From Bacillota bacterium (GTDB lineage Bacteria > Bacillota > Dethiobacteria > DTU022 > UBA8154): a DNA stretch of 39,967 nt. Under the pieces are notes generated by a model. That model was not told where the DNA came from and made no database searches. It worked only from the letters and a program-made list of their open reading frames with translations. The position numbers and the translations under genes were made by a program. The stretch lies in contig DUNV01000130.1 in NCBI GenBank assembly GCA_012839215.1, positions 1 through 39,967 of the forward strand, in the 5' to 3' direction. This document shows positions 1 through 30,014 of this stretch, one piece after another (positions within the stretch are counted from its first letter, which is position 1; each line of letters starts with the position of its first letter).

Positions 1-1258
1 CAGAAAAACCATCCGCACCCTTTAAATATTTTTTAACGAGGTGACCGATTTCAGGGTTTTCGATATCCCGATCCGAGGGTAGGTCTGCCACAAATCCCCC
101 ACAGATATCGATCATCAGGCGGGTAGCCTCCGCCATCTCCTTGCCCTCATGAATTTTGGAGGCATTGGCCAGGACCGTGTCGATGAAATAGGTCCCGGAG
201 GGCTCCTTTTTCCCTTCATAGGAAGAGGCCAGGCAGCACCCATAAAGGGTTTCAGCCCGGTGGATCATATCAATGGCTTTTTGCTTATGATGACTGGCTT
301 TGGCGGTACCGTTATATTCCATCAGGCAAAGCGCTGTACCGACCATGCAATCAATCTTTCCTGCCTTGCAACCGCCATGGCTTTGACGGTGATAGGATGA
401 AAAACGTAAAACCATTTCAGTAGCAAATTCAATCTCGCCACACATGAAAACCCTTTCCCAGGGTACAAAGACATCATCAAAGATAAGTAGGGGGCAGTAC
501 TTGGAATAATAGGCGTTACCGATATCACAGCCATCAATTTCGCGCATATCCAAAGAAGATCGCCCCACCACGTGAATTAGGCCGGGGGTATCCGCAGGAA
601 CAGCAAAGGAAAGGGAATAGTCTTCATCCCCCTCACGAAGCGCCCGGGTGGGCAGGACAATAATTTCATGCGAGGAAAGGGAACCGGTTTGGTGAGCCTT
701 GGCACCCCTGACGATAATGCCATCCTCGCGGCGCTCCACTACATGTATATACATATCCTTGTCTTCCTGGTTGCTGGGGCCCTTGGAGCGATCACCTTTT
801 ACATCCGTTACACCCGCGTTGCAGGTCAGATCATTTTTCTGAACGTATTCCAAAAATTTCAGGAAATTCTTATTGTATGAAGTCCCGTGTTTCTGATCGA
901 TATCATAAGTAACTATGGCCAGTGTGGAAAGGCAGTCCAAACCCGTGCAGCGCTGATGGCAGGTCCCCACGTAGCCACCCAGGACACGGTTTACCTTCAC
1001 CCTGGCAACGAGATCCTCGATCGATTCCGGTGGCAAACAAAAACGGTTGACCGGCTCATTGATCAAAGGACTCTGGGTAACAACCAGATCCCGGTATTCG
1101 TCCTTTTCGGCAATTTCGTAGGTCGAGGCAGTTGCCTCAATGCCCGCCCGCAGTCTGGGGTTGTCCACCACGTTTGTAATCTTTTCGCCAAACATGTAGA
1201 CAGTGGGTTTCATCTTGCGCAAAGACTCAATATACTCTTCCCTCGTTTTTAAAGCCAT
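1..1258 (-). CDS. 4-hydroxybutyryl-CoA dehydratase-like FAD/[4Fe-4S] protein (3' end outside window)
   Basis: The first 419 residues are visible; the C-terminus lies beyond the window edge. The reading frame matches the 4-hydroxybutyryl-CoA dehydratase/vinylacetyl-CoA isomerase (AbfD) family within the HpaB-like flavoproteins. All four [4Fe-4S] ligands of the Clostridium aminobutyricum enzyme are in place: C100 and C104 (CHQRC), H290 and C297 (YHRQSHGGCK). The flavin-region motif RGAKAHQTG is also present. Two residues proposed as catalytic are changed: the Glu257 position is C255 and the Tyr296 position is H294, while the lysine after the last cysteine is kept. The family removes water from 4-hydroxybutyryl-CoA by a ketyl-radical route and is oxygen-sensitive. 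ATG start with AGGAGG eight bases upstream. It follows the ligase genes by 53 bases, where there is only a weak 6-bp hairpin (1290-1304), so co-transcription is likely. The family is clear; the substrate is uncertain. Confidence 0.85.
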   Translation of the reverse strand, partial: MALKTREEYIESLRKMKPTVYMFGEKITNVVDNPRLRAGIEATASTYEIAEKDEYRDLVVTQSPLINEPVNRFCLPPESIEDLVARVKVNRVLGGYVGTCHQRCTGLDCLSTLAIVTYDIDQKHGTSYNKNFLKFLEYVQKNDLTCNAGVTDVKGDRSKGPSNQEDKDMYIHVVERREDGIIVRGAKAHQTGSLSSHEIIVLPTRALREGDEDYSLSFAVPADTPGLIHVVGRSSLDMREIDGCDIGNAYYSKYCPLLIFDDVFVPWERVFMCGEIEFATEMVLRFSSYHRQSHGGCKAGKIDCMVGTALCLMEYNGTAKASHHKQKAIDMIHRAETLYGCCLASSYEGKKEPSGTYFIDTVLANASKIHEGKEMAEATRLMIDICGGFVADLPSDRDIENPEIGHLVKKYLKGADGFS

Positions 1259-1311: not shown

Positions 1312-2181
1312 CTATTTTAGGCAACCTTTGAGCAGGCCGGCTACATCGCTTGGTTTTTTGGCAATGAGAGCCCCTGCCATATCCAGGGCCTTGATTTTGC
1401 CCTGCACCGTCCCCTGCCCTCTTCTACTGATGATTGCCCCGGCATGACCCATCCTGCGTCCTGAAGGAGCGGTACGCCCGGCGATATATGCGATAACCGG
1501 TTTTGCCATCTCTTTGATAAAATCTGCCGCCTCTTCCTCAGAGCTTCCCCCTATCTCGCCGACGATAATTACTGCCTCTGTCTGGGGATCAGCTTCAAAT
1601 TCCTGCAGGATTTTTATCATCCGCGAACCCACCACGGGATCGCCTCCTACACCGATCACGGTGCTTTGCCCCAGCCCGGCTTCATTTAAAATCCCGGCAA
1701 GTTCATAGGACAATGTGCCACTGCGGGAGATGATACCCATTTTACCTTCAGTAAACATATTCCCAGGCATGATCCCCAGCTTACCAATACCCGGGCTGAT
1801 AATACCGGGAGTATTGGGGCCCAGGAGCCAGACGCCTTTTTTTTCAGCAGCACTTTTCATCTGCAGCACATCATGGAGGGGCACATGTTCGGGGATGGCC
1901 ACGATCAATTTGATACCGGCATCAATGGCCTCTAGGACAGCATTGCGCAGGAAGACCCCGGGAACAAACATTACAGAGGCATTAGCCCCATGTTTTTCCA
2001 CCGCTTCATAAACATCATCATAGACGGGCAGGCCATGGACAATTTCACCGCCCCTGCCGGGTGTTATTCCGGCAACAAGCCTGGTCCCATATTCCAGCAT
2101 CCAGTTGGTCTGGACGCTGCCGATGCGGCCGGTGATGCCCTGCACGATTGCCCTGGTGTTTCTGTCGAGCAGAATGCTCAT
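1312..2181 (-). CDS. sucD: Succinyl-CoA synthetase family ligase, alpha subunit
   Basis: 289 residues, the usual length of the alpha subunit of ADP-forming succinate-CoA ligase. It has an N-terminal CoA-binding Rossmann domain (GITGRIGS near residue 15, ITPGRGG near residue 40) and a ligase domain ending with the phospho-histidine motif RRMGHAGAI near residue 245. The GIGGDPIPG-type loop is present as GVGGDPVVG, and EIGGSSEEEAA matches the family. The motif that reads GPNCPG in E. coli is GPNTPG here. The enzyme would join an acid to CoA with ATP through a phosphohistidine, in a complex with the beta subunit encoded immediately upstream; the two genes overlap by one base (TAATG). Substrate cannot be fixed from sequence, because the beta subunit diverges at several conserved places and the next gene acts on a CoA ester. 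Confidence 0.88.
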   Translation of the reverse strand: MSILLDRNTRAIVQGITGRIGSVQTNWMLEYGTRLVAGITPGRGGEIVHGLPVYDDVYEAVEKHGANASVMFVPGVFLRNAVLEAIDAGIKLIVAIPEHVPLHDVLQMKSAAEKKGVWLLGPNTPGIISPGIGKLGIMPGNMFTEGKMGIISRSGTLSYELAGILNEAGLGQSTVIGVGGDPVVGSRMIKILQEFEADPQTEAVIIVGEIGGSSEEEAADFIKEMAKPVIAYIAGRTAPSGRRMGHAGAIISRRGQGTVQGKIKALDMAGALIAKKPSDVAGLLKGCLK

Positions 2182-3350
2182 TACATCATCCCCTTGCCCG
2201 ATGTTTTCGCTTGAACTTTACGTGCATCTATCAATTCTAAAAGGCTTTCCACCGCATCCTCTGTTTTTACCGAGTTTATGACGGTAATACCACCCTCCCT
2301 AAGCGTTTCCCAGCATTCTTCCTGTTTATTGCCCAGTGCTTTTACGACAATGGGGGGTGTGCCCCTTTCCCTGATAAAGCGCACGATACCCTTGGCCCCT
2401 TTTTCTATGGGATTGACCCCGCCGTAAATATTGATGACTACACCGGTTACATTGCCGTTTTTGCAAACTAGTCTCAGCGTATTATACATCAGTTCCTCAG
2501 TGATTCCCCCGCCGGTTTCCAAAAAATTTGCCGGCGGAAATCCCCTATCCTCAAGCATATCCATCGTAGCCATGGCTAGTCCCGCCCCACTGCCGACCAC
2601 ACCGATGGAACCATCAAGCTTGATATAGGTTACGCCGATCCCGCGGGCCTCTTTTTCCAACTGGTCGCGCTCCTCCCAGAATTTTTTCTCGAACTTCTGC
2701 CGGGAAAGTGCGTTGTCATCTACCTCCACCTTGGCATCAAGAGCGACAATCTGGTTATCCGGAAGTATAACAAGGGGATTTATTTCTGCCATCAAAAGAT
2801 CGTATGCAAAGAAAAGATGTAATAATTTTTCAGCAATCCCCGTCAGCCCTTCCAAAACTTTACCATGGAAGCCGCCCCGGCGGATAAAACGCCTCAACTG
2901 GTAGACAGGGGGAAGGCTGAGGGGATCCACGGGCAGGCGGTAAACTTTTTCAGGCCTGCCGGCAACGATCTGTTCTATATTAACACCGCCCTCGGGAGAA
3001 AAAAGGAAAATTATCTCCCCGGTGTTGATATCAACCACCAGGCCCATATATATTTCTTCAACAATATCCAGCCGCTCTTCCACGAGCAATTTTTCGATGG
3101 AGAATTCCTCCATGTTCATTTTGAACAACCTTCCTGCCTCCGAGTGGACGTGGAAGGAATTGTCAACAAATTTAATGCCTCCGGCTTTGCCCCTTCCCTC
3201 TGCAGGCACCTGGACTTTTAGGACGATGTCTCCACCGAGCTGTTCTGCAGCCTCTACTGCCTCCAGGGCGTTCGTTACTACCTTACCCTGTGGGATAGGT
3301 ATACCATTGGCAGCAAACAGTTTTTTGCCCTGGTATTCCAAGAGTTTCAT
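2181..3350 (-). CDS. sucC: Succinyl-CoA synthetase family ligase, beta subunit
   Basis: 389 residues: an ATP-grasp domain (start MKLLEYQGKKLFA, EGRGKAGGIKF near residue 52), the EINPLV metal/nucleotide motif near residue 190, and a C-terminal CoA-ligase domain (GSGAGLAMATMD, FLETGGGITEE). It pairs with the alpha subunit downstream. Compared with E. coli and Bacillus SucC, the HAGGRGKAGG motif is PAEGRGKAGG, and the IFGGI..CD segment is IYGGVNPIEKGA, so acyl specificity may differ from succinate. ATG start with an AAGGAGG ribosome site six bases upstream. It is the first gene after the spoIVA terminator and the likely head of a sucC-sucD-abfD-like operon. I see only poor sigma-A-like hexamers in the 165 bases in front of it. 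Confidence 0.87.
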   Translation of the reverse strand: MKLLEYQGKKLFAANGIPIPQGKVVTNALEAVEAAEQLGGDIVLKVQVPAEGRGKAGGIKFVDNSFHVHSEAGRLFKMNMEEFSIEKLLVEERLDIVEEIYMGLVVDINTGEIIFLFSPEGGVNIEQIVAGRPEKVYRLPVDPLSLPPVYQLRRFIRRGGFHGKVLEGLTGIAEKLLHLFFAYDLLMAEINPLVILPDNQIVALDAKVEVDDNALSRQKFEKKFWEERDQLEKEARGIGVTYIKLDGSIGVVGSGAGLAMATMDMLEDRGFPPANFLETGGGITEELMYNTLRLVCKNGNVTGVVINIYGGVNPIEKGAKGIVRFIRERGTPPIVVKALGNKQEECWETLREGGITVINSVKTEDAVESLLELIDARKVQAKTSGKGMM

Positions 3351-3621: not shown

Positions 3622-5097
3622 TTAAAGAATAATTACGATTATCCCGCCGCTTCCCTCATTGATAATTTTTTCCAACGTTTCCTGAAGTTTATTTTGGGCA
3701 CTCTGCGGCATGTTGCCAAGCTTACCGGAAATTCCGTCCCTGACAAGTTCATACAGCGATTTCCCCAGCAGATTGGATTCCCAAAGTTTTTGCGGGTTTT
3801 CAGCGTACTCCTCCATGAGATAGTTAACGAGCTCTTCGCTTTGTTTTTCAGTACCAACAATAGGTGTAAATTCGGATTTGATATCCACCTTGATCATATG
3901 CAATGAAGGGGCACTGGCCTGAAGTCTTACGCCAAAGCGGCCCCCTTGGCGGATAATTTCCGGTTCTTCCAGGCTTATTTCTTCCAAGAGCGGGGGCATG
4001 ATGCCATAACCATTTTCTTTTACTTCCTCCAAAGCCTGGGCAACTTTATCATACTCCCTCTTGGCATGGGAATAATCCCTCACGATTTTGAGCAGATCGG
4101 CCTGATCTTCAATTTCTGTGCCACAGATTTCCGAGAGTACTTTATCATACAGCTCCTGGGGGGCAGTTATTTCTATAAAAGCCGAGCCACTGCCCAGTTC
4201 GATATTTTTTACTTGGGCGTTTTCGATCAGATCGTTTTTTTCCAGCGCGATGATTGATGTTTCCACATCCCGGATTTTTTCTGCGCTGAGCACATGTTCC
4301 CTTATAACTGCGGTAAACTCCTTTACGACCCAGTGGGCTGGTTCTAGTACTTCGATCCAGGAAGGCAGATTTATGCTGATTTCCTGAACAGGAAATTCAA
4401 AGAGGACTTCTCTGAAAATCAGGTTGATATCATTTTCATTTAGTTCCAGGCAATTGAGGGCTACAACCGGCACCTCATATTCCCTGGCAAGTTCATTTTT
4501 GAGTTCAATAGTACTCTGGGAATAGGGTTTGGATGAATTGAGAATGATGACAAATGGTTTGCCAATCTCCCTTAGTTCTGCAATGACACGCTGTTCTGCC
4601 ATAATGTAGTTTTCCCGATCCAGATCGGTAATCGTCCCATCGGTTGTCACGACAAACCCAATGGTGGAATGCTCATTTATGACCTTTTGCGTTCCAATCT
4701 CGGCAGCCTCCTCGAAAGGGATAGGATGCTCAAACCATGGGGTAGAAACCATGCGCTGGCTTCCCTCATCATCGTATCCAACCGCTCCGGGAACAGTATA
4801 GCCAACGCAATCCACTAGTCTAACCCGCATGGTGATATTTTCTGCCAAAGTTATTTCAATAGCCTCATCGGGGATAAATTTGGGTTCGGTGGTCATAATG
4901 GTTTTGCCAGCACTTCCTTGCGGAAGTTCATCCTTGGTTCTTTCCAAAACATGGGGGTTATCTATATTGGGGAGAACGAGTATCTCCATAAACTTTTTTA
5001 TAAAGGTTGATTTACCCGTTCTGACCGGACCAACCACACCTAAATAGATATCCCCTCCAGTCCGTTCCACAATATCTTGAAAAAGGTCGAATTTCAC
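3622..5097 (-). CDS. spoIVA: Stage IV sporulation protein A (coat morphogenetic ATPase)
   Basis: 491 residues, almost exactly the length of Bacillus subtilis SpoIVA. The start region FDLFQDIVERTGGDIYLGV, the Walker A motif GPVRTGKST near residue 24, and the short conserved hydrophobic C-terminus ending GGIIVIIL are all typical. SpoIVA hydrolyses ATP to polymerise on the outer forespore membrane in the mother cell and forms the base on which the spore coat assembles. The start is GTG with AGGAGGGG about seven bases upstream; no ATG gives a better N-terminus. It stands alone between gpsA (193 bases upstream) and a terminator. A sigma-E-type promoter at 5153-5180 fits its mother-cell role. Confidence 0.97.
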   Translation of the reverse strand: MKFDLFQDIVERTGGDIYLGVVGPVRTGKSTFIKKFMEILVLPNIDNPHVLERTKDELPQGSAGKTIMTTEPKFIPDEAIEITLAENITMRVRLVDCVGYTVPGAVGYDDEGSQRMVSTPWFEHPIPFEEAAEIGTQKVINEHSTIGFVVTTDGTITDLDRENYIMAEQRVIAELREIGKPFVIILNSSKPYSQSTIELKNELAREYEVPVVALNCLELNENDINLIFREVLFEFPVQEISINLPSWIEVLEPAHWVVKEFTAVIREHVLSAEKIRDVETSIIALEKNDLIENAQVKNIELGSGSAFIEITAPQELYDKVLSEICGTEIEDQADLLKIVRDYSHAKREYDKVAQALEEVKENGYGIMPPLLEEISLEEPEIIRQGGRFGVRLQASAPSLHMIKVDIKSEFTPIVGTEKQSEELVNYLMEEYAENPQKLWESNLLGKSLYELVRDGISGKLGNMPQSAQNKLQETLEKIINEGSGGIIVIIL

Positions 5098-13455: not shown

Positions 13456-15471
13456 TTATTTTTCCTTGTTAAAAAGATCCCCAAAAACATCCCCAAGGGT
13501 AACACTGCCATCTGCCCCATTATCTTTTTGGGAAGAATGGGATGAGAAATCCCTCGGTGCAGGGCGGGCTTCCTTAATACTTAGGCTGATTCTTTTGCTT
13601 TCCAGGTTTATATCCAATATTTTGGCTTCTATCTCTTCCCCTTCCTGCAAGATCTCGGATGGATGCTTGACATGAAAATCGGCCATTTGTGAAATATGGA
13701 CAAGACCTTCCACGCCTGGAGTCAGCTCTACAAATGCCCCAAAGGTGACAATTCTCGTAACCTTACCCTTCACTATCTCATTGACTGAAAAGTTTTCCCC
13801 GACAAGAGACCATGGGTTTGGCTGGGCCTGTCTGATACTGAGGCTAATTTTTTCTTTTTCCGGGATGACATCCAGAATTTTTACTTGGACTTCCTCTCCT
13901 ACCTTTAATACATCCCGGGGATGTCCCACCCTTTGCCAGGAAACCTCAGAAATATGCACTAGGCCATCAATGCCTCCCACATCGACAAATGCCCCGAAAT
14001 CTGTCAGGCGCTTAACCGTCCCGTTTATAACAGAATCTTTTTCCAGGCTGGCAATGGTCTCCTTTTTGATTTTCTCAATCTCTTCTTCGATAGTATGTTT
14101 TCTGGAAAGGATGACTTTGTCTCTTTCCCAGTTAAGTTCAATAACTTTAAAGGAAAACTCTTCACCTAAAAATTTGTTGAAATCGGGAATATAGCGAACA
14201 TCCACCAAAGAGCCGGGCATAAAACCCTCTATCCCACTACCGAGGTTGATAATAATACCGGCGGGAACCACCTCTTTGACGTTTCCCTGCATATTCTTTC
14301 CGTTTTCTAAGGCATCCTCGAGCTCCTTCCAGCGTCTTTCCCTTTCCAGCCGCTTGGCGGAGACGATGATGTTATCATCCTGCTCGTTTATTTTTAGTAT
14401 TAACAAATCAATGCTATCCCCCGGGGAAAATTTTTCCTGCAAGGTTGCCCCCTCTTCCAAAAATATCTCCCCCTTGGGAAGTGTAGCTTCTGCCTTGGAG
14501 CCAATGTCCACAAGGATCTGTTCATCCTCAACCAGAACGATTTTCCCATTGACGACATCGCCAATACGGTAGTTCCTTATTTCTGTGTTTTCTGGACTTT
14601 GCTCTTCAGTTTTTGCCTCTAGATTCCCATTTTCCATTTTCACCAAAACCTCCTTTATCGTCCACTCCGGGGTTGAAGCGCCAGCAGTCACCCCAACAGT
14701 TTGAACCCCTGCAAACCATTCTTCTAAGATATCCTCGGCACCGGATATTTGGTATGTTTTTGTTTTTTCAAGACATACCTGTGTTAATTTTGCTGTATTT
14801 GAACTTCTAGGGTCCCCTATGACCAGCATTAAATCCACCCTGGAGGAAAGCTCCTGGGCTTTTTCCTGCCTAAGCCTTGTGGCATGGCAAATTGTGTTTT
14901 TGATCTCGAGATGCGGGCAAAGATCCTTGATTTCCTGGGCAAGACTAAAAAAATTGCTTTCCCTTTGCGTAGTCTGGGAAAGTAAAAGAATATTTCCTGA
15001 GAGATCCTGACCTTCAAGTTTACTTCTGATTTGCCCGATATCCGATGGCTCAATGATCTGTGCCCTGTTTCCGGACCAGTCAAGCAATGCCTGCACCTCG
15101 GGATGGGCACTATCGCCGAAAATGAGGATCTTGTACCCTTTCTGGGAATAAAGGTGAACCATTTGCTGGACCTTGCCTACGTACTGGCAGGTTGCATCGA
15201 CAACTTCTATTTTTTTGTCATTTTGCAGAAGCCCCAGGGTAGCAGGGCCGATTCCATGGGCGCGAATAATAACAGCCCCCCCTTCCAGCTCTTCCGGCCG
15301 ATGAACAACCTTCACCCTTCTGGCTGCCAGAAAATCGGCCACCTTTTGGTTATGCACCAGGGGCCCAAAAGTATTAACCTCCTTTCCCCCGGCAACCTCG
15401 TTTAAGGTGAGCTCCAGGGCACGCTCAACGCCCTTACAAAAACCTGCATATTCCGCCAAAAAAACCTGCAA
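13456..15471 (-). CDS. ispH-rpsA: Fused HMBPP reductase (IspH) and ribosomal protein S1
   Basis: 671 residues in one frame. Residues 1-280 are IspH, the last enzyme of the MEP isoprenoid pathway: the three [4Fe-4S] cysteines occur at AGFCKGV (C12), VDATC (about C95) and NTIC (about C195), with AHGIG, HPEV, SQTTQ and GASTPE motifs. Residues about 300-630 carry four S1 RNA-binding repeats (for example GFMPGSLVD, GLVHISEVSW, GLVHISQMAD), and a charged, low-complexity tail follows. The fusion is known from many Clostridia. The GFCAGV motif is GFCKGV here. TTG start preceded by a G-rich site seven bases upstream. It is the last gene of the cmk-plsC-ispH/rpsA transcript, as in other Clostridia, and ends at a strong terminator. 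Confidence 0.95.
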   Translation of the reverse strand: MQVFLAEYAGFCKGVERALELTLNEVAGGKEVNTFGPLVHNQKVADFLAARRVKVVHRPEELEGGAVIIRAHGIGPATLGLLQNDKKIEVVDATCQYVGKVQQMVHLYSQKGYKILIFGDSAHPEVQALLDWSGNRAQIIEPSDIGQIRSKLEGQDLSGNILLLSQTTQRESNFFSLAQEIKDLCPHLEIKNTICHATRLRQEKAQELSSRVDLMLVIGDPRSSNTAKLTQVCLEKTKTYQISGAEDILEEWFAGVQTVGVTAGASTPEWTIKEVLVKMENGNLEAKTEEQSPENTEIRNYRIGDVVNGKIVLVEDEQILVDIGSKAEATLPKGEIFLEEGATLQEKFSPGDSIDLLILKINEQDDNIIVSAKRLERERRWKELEDALENGKNMQGNVKEVVPAGIIINLGSGIEGFMPGSLVDVRYIPDFNKFLGEEFSFKVIELNWERDKVILSRKHTIEEEIEKIKKETIASLEKDSVINGTVKRLTDFGAFVDVGGIDGLVHISEVSWQRVGHPRDVLKVGEEVQVKILDVIPEKEKISLSIRQAQPNPWSLVGENFSVNEIVKGKVTRIVTFGAFVELTPGVEGLVHISQMADFHVKHPSEILQEGEEIEAKILDINLESKRISLSIKEARPAPRDFSSHSSQKDNGADGSVTLGDVFGDLFNKEK

Positions 15472-28413: not shown

Positions 28414-29451
28414 CTAAATTTCCAAAGCGACTGCATGGGCGATGGCGGGTATGCTCTCCCCCTGCTGATAGGTAGTTGTGCTGTGCAGCGCACCGGTAGC
28501 CACGAATAAAACCCTGCCCAGCCTTTTTTCCAGCATATCCTTGTATACTTTTCCTAAAAAGAAAAGTGCGCAGCATGCACATCCGCTTGCCCCGGCATGG
28601 ACTTTCTGATGGGGATAATATAGCTGTATACCACAATCTGTGTAATTAAGCAGGTTGAGGCCCTTTCTGGCCAGGATGTCTTCATTTAGTTGCTTTCCAA
28701 CCTCCCCTAAATCCCCGGTTAGGATAAGTTGATAATAATCTGCATCCCTCCCCAGATCAGTTAGGTGACGGTAAATAGTATCTGCTGCGGCCGGAGCCAT
28801 GGCCATGCCCATGTTGTAAGGATCCTTTATTTCGGGATCGACCACCTTCCCGATAGTAATGGATTCAATGCGAGGCCCTTCCTCCAGGGAAGAACCTAGG
28901 ACAACCGCCCCGGCACCGGTAACGGTCTGCTGGGAGTAGCCAGGCCTTTGAAAACCATATTCCGTAGGATAGCGGTATTGCCTTTCCGAACTACAGTTAT
29001 GGCTGGAGGTGGCCACGAGGATCCGCCCGGCAAAATTTCCTTCGAGGAGCATGGCCCCGAGGGAAAGTCCTTCCACAAGTGAAGAACAGGCACCATAAAT
29101 GCCCAGGAAAGGTAGGGCCAGTTTCCTGGCACAAAAGGAGGAACTAATAATTTGGTTCAAGAGGTCACCTGCAATAAAAAAGTCAATATCATCGGGACTC
29201 AGGCCCAGCTTACCCAGGGCCAGAAAACAAGTTTCCTCCAGCATACGGCGTTCAGCCTTTTCAAAGCTGCCCTCTTTGAGGAGGTTATCCGGGTAGATAC
29301 GATCGTAGTGCTCCGCGAGCGGGCCGGAACCCTCCTTGGGGCCGGCAACTGTTGCTGCAGCTGCCAATACCGCTTTTTTTTCCATGATCATGCTCTGGTT
29401 TCCAGCCCTTTTGCCTACCGGCCTAATTTTTTCAGTTACGGTTTCCGCCAA
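28414..29451 (-). CDS. spoVAD: Stage V sporulation protein AD
   Basis: 345 residues, thiolase-like fold. The conserved AGDLLNQIISSSFCARKLALPFLG (split; near residues 93-117), ATSSHNCSSERQYRYPTEYG and TVTGAGAVVLG motifs are diagnostic. SpoVAD binds dipicolinic acid as part of the SpoVA system. TTG start with a GGGGGG site nine bases upstream; this adds 13 residues before the point matching the Bacillus N-terminus, and no ATG or GTG lies between. A 20-codon open frame overlaps its start (29436-29498). Confidence 0.95.
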   Translation of the reverse strand: MAETVTEKIRPVGKRAGNQSMIMEKKAVLAAAATVAGPKEGSGPLAEHYDRIYPDNLLKEGSFEKAERRMLEETCFLALGKLGLSPDDIDFFIAGDLLNQIISSSFCARKLALPFLGIYGACSSLVEGLSLGAMLLEGNFAGRILVATSSHNCSSERQYRYPTEYGFQRPGYSQQTVTGAGAVVLGSSLEEGPRIESITIGKVVDPEIKDPYNMGMAMAPAAADTIYRHLTDLGRDADYYQLILTGDLGEVGKQLNEDILARKGLNLLNYTDCGIQLYYPHQKVHAGASGCACCALFFLGKVYKDMLEKRLGRVLFVATGALHSTTTYQQGESIPAIAHAVALEI

Positions 29452-29498
29452 GGGAACGTGCCCCCCTTGCCGACATCCTGTTTTTTTAATATGTTCAT
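29436..29498 (-). CDS. Possible 20-residue leader peptide overlapping the spoVAD start
   Basis: ATG with a GGGGAG site nine bases upstream; the frame MNILKKQDVGKGGTFPWRKP ends at a TAA 16 bases inside spoVAD. The arrangement would allow translational coupling to the TTG start of spoVAD. Short frames arise by chance, so support is modest. Confidence 0.3.
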   Translation of the reverse strand: MNILKKQDVGKGGTFPWRKP

Positions 29499-29543
29499 AA
29501 TAAACAGCTCCCCATGTTGTATCAATTTTAGACTGGTTTTACC

Positions 29544-30014
29544 CTAATGTATTAGGGCAGAAATAATCCCCACGACGAAAGCTGTCACCACGCCAAAGAC
29601 GATCACAGATCCGGCCAGAGCAAACATTTTTGATCCCGTTCCCAGAACAAGGCCTTCCCTTTTAAATTCTATGGCCATGGAGGTTATGGAGTTGGCAAAT
29701 CCGGTCACAGGTACAGCCAGGCCCGCCCCGACTATTCGGGCCATTTTATCAAAAACGCCCAACCCCGTCAGCATGGCAGCAATAAAAATAATGGTGGTTA
29801 TGGTAGGATTTCCAGCCAATTCTTTCGGCATCCCCTGACTGATAAAAAGATTTAGAATAAATTGCCCCAAAAGACATACTGCCCCTCCACCAAGGAAGGC
29901 ACTAATAATATTTTTACTGAGCGGGGGGCGTGGTTTTTTTTGCCTGTTCCACTCGTTTAGCCACTTCTTATCTAATAGTAATTCCTTATTTGGGTTCTGT
30001 TCCATTCTAGACAT
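29544..30014 (-). CDS. spoVAC: Stage V sporulation protein AC
   Basis: 156 residues, four or more membrane segments: FLGGGAVCLLGQFILNLFI near residue 40, MLTGLGVFDKMARIVGAGLAVPVTGFANSI (near residues 80-110). SpoVAC is a mechanosensitive channel subunit of the dipicolinate transport complex in the spore inner membrane. ATG start, ribosome site AGAGGTG. First gene of spoVAC-AD-AE-AF. I could not find a convincing sigma-G promoter in the 154 bases upstream, although the family is forespore-expressed in Bacillus. Confidence 0.94.
   Translation of the reverse strand: MSRMEQNPNKELLLDKKWLNEWNRQKKPRPPLSKNIISAFLGGGAVCLLGQFILNLFISQGMPKELAGNPTITTIIFIAAMLTGLGVFDKMARIVGAGLAVPVTGFANSITSMAIEFKREGLVLGTGSKMFALAGSVIVFGVVTAFVVGIISALIH

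Follow-up and report, generated by a model that had tools for sequence, protein, structure and literature searches.

The window, meaning the whole stretch of 39,967 nucleotides analysed here, is one entire contig (C103) of a 2.06-Mb assembly, which is made of 156 contigs and is 97% complete. At its left end, on the minus strand, lie the first 419 codons of a gene (2–1258) for an AbfD-like protein, here called CH, whose frame is open at the contig end; about 60 C-terminal residues are lost beyond that end (full-length relatives mostly have 476–485 residues). The gene is the only match to its protein in the source assembly. Upstream of it, on the same strand, are found two genes for subunits of a ligase of the ADP-forming SucCD family: SucD* (1312–2181), which reaches the curated TIGR01019 cut-off (392.3 bits against 353.2) and is 57–86% identical to the SucD proteins beside other CH genes, and SucC* (2181–3350), which stays under its curated cut-offs (347.8 and 326.5 bits against 370 and 375.55). 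SucC* is the only close SucC in the assembly, the other match being 26% identical over part of a 699-codon frame.

Elsewhere in the window, a minus-strand frame of 671 residues (13456–15471) looks like an IspH-type reductase fused to S1 repeats, an arrangement known from Clostridia. The frames at 3622–5097 and 28414–30014 (minus strand) resemble by eye what we take to be the sporulation genes SpoIVA, SpoVAD and SpoVAC, and the source organism may therefore be a spore former.

The window protein matches the Pfam families HpaB_N and HpaB, and its nearest solved structures are 1u8v, the AbfD of Clostridium aminobutyricum (E 6.7e-126), and then 6vjr, named in the structure-match listing as the dehydratase of Nitrosopumilus maritimus; over the whole length the CH class and these enzymes show 41–45% class identity. 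An AlphaFold2 model of a full-length relative (L031), built on a 30-row alignment, reached a mean pLDDT of 88.4 and a pTM of 0.89, and its best PDB match was again 1u8v, with a TM-score of 0.95. The stretches 241–243 and 440–444 are under pLDDT 50; the latter is the place of AbfD E455, about which the model therefore says little. HpaB-type enzymes come next, with TM-scores of about 0.83–0.86. They share the two Pfam families, but HpaB (4-hydroxyphenylacetate 3-monooxygenase) sequences lack the cluster cysteines in our alignments, and the window protein falls far under the cut-offs of the NCBIfam HpaB models (172.4 against 480.2, and 73.7 against 885.2).

In AbfD we take C99, C103, H292 and C299 to be the ligands of the [4Fe-4S] cluster, E257 and Y296 to be the proposed catalytic residues, and Glu455 to be a third acid. 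The alignment to 1u8v and 6vjr bears out the original prediction that the four ligands are matched in the window protein, by C100 and C104 (within CHQRC, 947–961, minus strand) and by H290 and C297 (the ends of HRQSHGGC, 368–391, minus strand), and the column map also places C255 (494–496, minus strand) at Glu257 and H294, within the second motif, at Tyr296. The constant offset of two residues on which this had been based does not hold for the first pair of ligands: C100 and C104 are shifted by +1, whereas H290 and C297 are shifted by -2, three residues at about AbfD 241–247 being missing from the window protein. The assignment of the two catalytic columns is nevertheless secure, since both lie after the gap and share the -2 offset of H290 and C297.

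Relatives were collected as the best 80 of 541 matches from one scan of genome contigs, and duplicate loci (L002–L006) were dropped before residue alignment. His occupies position 296 in 76 alignment rows, and so many rows sharing it show that the residue switch is neither a sequencing error nor chance. Of these rows, 67 carry Cys at position 257 and 8 carry Ala, the letter being unread in one; among full-length rows the figures are 66 and 7 of 73. The ligand columns are kept throughout, C99 and C103 in 74/74 rows with a letter and H292 and C299 in 76/76. Glu257 and Tyr296 are present in all 32 rows without His at 296, which represent the two solved enzymes plus 30 genes from 29 loci; Glu455 is present in 31 of them, the sole exception being the second AbfD-like gene of L107. 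Characterised dehydratases carrying Cys and His had been named as the case that would speak against a changed enzyme; both solved ones, 1u8v and 6vjr, have Glu and Tyr.

The claim of two missing catalytic residues holds for both positions, but understates the change. The Glu455 column, which the truncated window protein does not reach, is Ser in 71/71 full-length relatives, N442 is replaced by Lys in 71/72 CH rows and A460 by Gly in 71/71, and about 20 more columns differ as well. Q101, T190 and K300, instead, are kept in 73, 73 and 74 of the 74 full-length CH rows (longer than 380 residues, with His at 296). Altogether 26 columns hold one near-fixed residue in these 74 rows and another in 44 E/Y/E rows, a count in which some states are fixed by construction, E/Y/E rows having been picked by E257, Y296, E455 and C299 and CH rows by His296. 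Switched columns add both positive (K253, R334, K432, in L031 numbering) and negative charge (D392, E436, D443), and we therefore do not read them as a clear adaptation to an anionic substrate.

A tree of 78 thinned rows, calculated with columns 257, 296, 442, 455 and 460 left out, separates all 39 His rows from the others by a branch of SH-aLRT 100, so that CH is a clade provided that the root falls outside these 39 rows. The E/Y/E rows (n=23) form a separate group with support 86, with which CH does not group. A Dehalococcoidales sequence (L103, 55% identical) is the first to branch within CH, and the Firmicute group of the window is placed among Desulfobacterota rows; L103 apart, CH proteins of different phyla are 69–89% identical. 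The suggestion that the Cys/His pair defines a clade thus stands for the His-bearing proteins; it is His that defines the clade and not the pair, because some of its rows have Ala instead of Cys. Those same rows (8/76 when fragments are included) leave special cysteine chemistry unsupported and weaken a catalytic cysteine at 257 as a candidate.

No His at 296 was found in 59 further AbfD-like rows from Firmicute relatives (L169, too short, was left out). Some AbfD-like groups in L111–L168 and L170 (for instance L127, L126 and L147) keep most cluster-ligand positions and have other residues at 257/296/455, namely D/Y/G (HRHSYTGCKPA), T/C/G (HRMNCGGACK) and Q/I/G with Tyr at 292 (YRACIGGCV). Judged from these residues, each of them may be another unnamed enzyme. 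Two CH genes are split over two frames, by frameshift or sequencing error (L093, 6495–8555; L105, 1501–2884). The gene often lies at a contig end (L001, L031, L175, L285, L287), possibly because strong conservation of CH breaks metagenome assemblies, and its absence from draft genomes is thus weak evidence.

The ligase encoded beside CH is also a distinct type. SucC proteins from CH loci, of Firmicutes and Desulfobacterota alike, cluster together as 42 rows (FastTree support 98), to the exclusion of 24 other SucC-like rows; the linked Firmicute rows include one from a genome without CH (L173, G023), and four "unlinked" rows inside the clade are copies of linked genes. In the window SucC* the loop NIYGGVNPIE (2403–2432, minus strand) stands in place of the usual NIFGGI(V/T/L)RCD, and GG(I/V)NPI instead of GG..RCD is found in exactly the 42 rows of the clade out of 66, and all 42 have ETGG. 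SucC* belongs to the same two-subunit family as ADP-forming SucCD, but differs from it in its N.YGG(I/V)NPI loop, which in the usual form (NIFGG..RCD) presumably contacts the acid. The changed loop, along with the missed cut-offs of the beta subunit, argues for a changed acid as substrate of SucC*D*. A SucC identity of about 40–45% between the two phyla had hinted that each recruited SucCD on its own, an idea that was discarded because the tree joins the two groups with the support given above.

Gene neighbourhood separates CH from ordinary AbfD. Genes for Kor, a 2-oxoacid:ferredoxin oxidoreductase, or for SucC*D* lie within 1.5 kb in 55/75 CH loci and in 0/37 ordinary AbfD loci, the total flank being at least 2 kb in 65/75 and 33/37 of them, respectively. 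Within 2.5 kb of CH, Kor is found in 23 of the 75 loci, SucC*D* in 33, both in none and neither in 19, many of these being on short contigs. Within 8 kb the 75 loci feature GntR-type regulators (25 and 8, in two clusters), an LhgO/GlpA-like FAD dehydrogenase (13), DctM (12), D-2-hydroxyacid dehydrogenase (11), CaiB-type CoA-transferase (9), Ldh_2 (8), acyl-CoA dehydrogenase (8), LarA-type nickel isomerase (6), beta-keto acid cleavage enzyme (3) and ILVD_EDD (2). Family labels come from BLAST clusters, whose representatives rather than all members were scanned, and gene picking can miss a gene beneath an opposite-strand reading frame.

Several operons combine these genes: GntR-D2HADH-KorA-KorB-KorC-CH-Ldh2 in L283, GntR-KorABC-LarA-D2HADH in L282, and LarA-GntR-SucC*-SucD*-CH, cut by the contig end, in L175. 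Two relatives of the window (L101 and L032) carry SucC*-SucD*-CH with a convergent Ldh_2, and in the complete genome of Desulfonema magnum 4be13 (L102) CH is accompanied by SucC*D*, by the FAD dehydrogenase set and by a GntR regulator. In G023 (L173) the operon D2HADH-LarA-SucD*-SucC*-KorC-KorB-KorA is whole, and no CH match was found in this assembly, which is 87% complete. A further stretch (L289, G139) shows SucC*D* with GntR and a set of FAD dehydrogenase, Pyr_redox and DUF1667, and no CH gene; the FAD set seems to accompany the ligase also where CH is missing. A protein of about 290–300 residues, lacking a Pfam match, lies near TRAP transporter or LarA genes of CH loci (L252, 15319–16227; L053, 12853–13713). 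The LarA-type gene of L053 belongs to nickel-isomerase group 22, for which no function is named in excerpts of PMC7583248, PMC11770544 and PMC12393405.

The association holds by genome as well. Among 70 Firmicute relatives, CH is present in 7 (in one by a 99-residue fragment), SucC of the window type in 8 (58% identity or more) and KorA of the G023 type in 4 (69% or more). Either partner occurs in 7/7 genomes with CH and in 2/63 others (p 3e-8, a value that ignores kinship). Among 297 Desulfobacterota, with no more than five candidates scored in each genome, CH was found in at least 22, 21 by identity with motif confirmation and one (G342) by motif only, SucC* in 14 (66% or more) and KorA* in 12 (60% or more); matches of 54% (G132) and 45% (G304) to SucC and of 55% (G132) to KorA were left out, and all identity limits were set after the lists had been seen. 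Here a partner is found in 21/22 CH genomes and in 4/275 others (p 3e-27, again ignoring kinship). In two of these four a contig breaks off within a CH gene, whose start is preserved next to KorC in G281 and next to GntR-SucC*D* in G391; in the other two, G139 and G154, which have SucC*, no CH match was found, and in G139 the ligase stands with the FAD dehydrogenase set. The one CH genome with neither SucC* nor KorA*, G256, has Ldh_2 next door (L267). SucC* and KorA* occur together in only one Desulfobacterota genome (p 0.45), which fits alternatives or unrelated uses, and neither KorA of the G023 type nor LarA had a match in the assembly of the window at the strict limits used.

As originally proposed, action on another CoA ester, or another reaction, is likely, given the His clade, residues unlike those of both solved dehydratases and the different neighbourhood. 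On the whole we consider CH, with fair but limited confidence, an AbfD subfamily of new function, most likely an FAD/[4Fe-4S] radical enzyme that would act on a CoA thioester within an anaerobic 2-hydroxyacid pathway. The cofactor site is preserved while the acid-base set has changed, and 2-hydroxyacid, 2-oxoacid and acyl-CoA genes recur nearby; radical chemistry like that of AbfD, on a new CoA ester, is the best explanation of this combination. In the pathway we infer, a 2-hydroxyacid would be racemised by the LarA-type enzyme and oxidised to the 2-oxoacid by D- or L-dehydrogenases; the dedicated KorABC would turn the 2-oxoacid into an acyl-CoA, and the specialised SucC*D* would interconvert acyl-CoA and free acid with ATP. 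Since KorABC and SucC*D* replace each other beside CH, the ester that CH consumes or forms is probably an acyl-CoA which each of the two can make or use. Such a compound, R-CO-SCoA, could derive from R-CO-COOH through KorABC, from R-COOH through SucC*D* and, in three loci, from R-CO-CH2-COOH through the beta-keto acid cleavage enzyme.

By analogy with AbfD, the thioester would sit between FAD and cluster and a one-electron step would give an enoxy or ketyl radical, with a hydroxyl held by the cluster iron leaving or adding according to the direction in which the enzyme runs. Acid-base work would move from Glu257, Tyr296 and Glu455 to His290 and His294.

As acyl groups we weighed 4-hydroxyglutaryl, glycolyl, lactyl and 3,4-dihydroxybutyryl, and nothing in the present data decides among them. 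The leading single guess, tentative and by itself rather unlikely to be right, is that 2-hydroxyglutarate is activated at C5 and that CH would interconvert 4-hydroxyglutaryl-CoA and glutaconyl-CoA. AbfD needs a gamma-hydroxyl on its substrate, and 2-hydroxyglutarate is, to our knowledge, the only common 2-hydroxyacid whose CoA ester is also a gamma-hydroxyacyl-CoA. This guess is also favoured by KorA, nearer to 2-oxoglutarate synthase (234 bits) than to pyruvate oxidoreductase (57 bits), though nearest to an archaeal 2-keto acid enzyme (360 bits), by the LhgO-like FAD dehydrogenase (218 of 299 bits to LhgO, 272 of 460 to glycerol-3-phosphate oxidase), and by the CaiB gene beside CH in L256, nearest to succinate-glutarate CoA-transferase (352 of 750 bits). 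Against it, the D-2-hydroxyacid dehydrogenase of CH loci is nearest to phosphoglycerate dehydrogenase and glyoxylate reductase, and KorABC would run beside CH and not feed it; apart from that CaiB-type gene, KorABC-type loci offer no evident candidate for attaching CoA at C5.

Other readings of the same loci are less probable. CH might be a radical dehydratase for 2-hydroxyacyl-CoA or 3,4-dihydroxyacyl-CoA, converting for example lactyl-CoA to acryloyl-CoA or 3,4-dihydroxybutyryl-CoA to acetoacetyl-CoA; it would then do on the AbfD fold what the ATP-activated 2-hydroxyacyl-CoA dehydratases do. Passages of PMC8473912 describe these (2-hydroxyglutaryl- and lactyl-CoA dehydratases) as an ATP-driven activator with a two-subunit Fe-S enzyme. 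CH would resemble them in function only, as enzymes that dehydrate CoA esters by radicals when 2-hydroxyacids are fermented. We regard this reading as improbable: acyl-CoA dehydrogenases that score best to acryloyl-CoA reductase, both below cut-off, lie beside or near CH in L103 and L073, and ILVD_EDD dehydratases near it in two loci, but such neighbours are a minority (within 8 kb, 8/75 and 2/75, respectively). Next in probability, and doubtful too, is a reductive enzyme which would remove the alpha-hydroxyl from a small 2-hydroxyacyl-CoA, turning for example glycolyl-CoA into acetyl-CoA, and would receive its electrons from a flavoprotein encoded nearby. As the beta carbon would not have to be deprotonated, the loss of acid-base residues would be explained; the kinship of the D-2-hydroxyacid dehydrogenase to glyoxylate reductase and phosphoglycerate dehydrogenase is in its favour, and flavoproteins with Fe-S motifs do stand beside some CH genes (Pyr_redox with Fer4 in L090, BaiCD-like in L053, DAO with Fer2_BFD in L037). 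The CH loci, however, share no constant electron partner, and we know of no AbfD-fold enzyme catalyzing such a reaction.

Less probable still is that CH remains a 4-hydroxybutyryl-CoA dehydratase or vinylacetyl-CoA isomerase with a drifted active site, His doing the work of Tyr. Fold, ligands, Q101, T190 and K300 are indeed the same, and a SucCD-like ligase could activate 4-hydroxybutyrate, but all three acid-base columns have changed to a near-fixed new state, the Kor and SucC*D* neighbours are missing from all ordinary AbfD loci, and at least one genome (G143) has both CH and ordinary AbfD. A catalytically dead or regulatory paralogue, suggested by the three changed columns, is very unlikely in view of the identity between phyla, the kept ligands and the recurrent catabolic operons.

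A few further candidates were dropped. 3-Hydroxypropionyl-CoA was discarded as a substrate because crotonases dehydrate it without radicals. A link to benzoyl-CoA or benzene, hinted at by the hosts, found no footing, the one paper holding all three terms (PMC13101534) citing AbfD, in the passage concerned, as a mechanistic analogy only. The gamma-butyrobetaine enzyme BbuA is analogous in function, its identity to AbfD being about 10% according to passages of PMC8364193.

Returning to the preferred reading of CH as a radical enzyme with a new CoA ester, it is about an even chance that it represents a new radical activity on the AbfD scaffold, with His replacing the Tyr/Glu set, and the core of an undescribed anaerobic 2-hydroxyacid pathway, common to Firmicutes and Desulfobacterota and equipped with a 2-oxoacid oxidoreductase and an ADP-forming acyl-CoA ligase of its own; excerpts of the open-access literature searched contain no description of a pathway of this kind. 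The reaction would perhaps be the dehydration of 2-hydroxyglutarate via its C5 CoA ester, with no ATP-driven activator. AbfD is a standard example of a flavin/iron-sulphur enzyme performing a radical dehydration with no net redox change, and a clade in which the cofactor site is kept but the acid-base residues are swapped amounts to a natural experiment on the determinants of the reaction. The genes that recur as its partners indicate a catabolic route in bacteria that are syntrophic or reduce sulphate.
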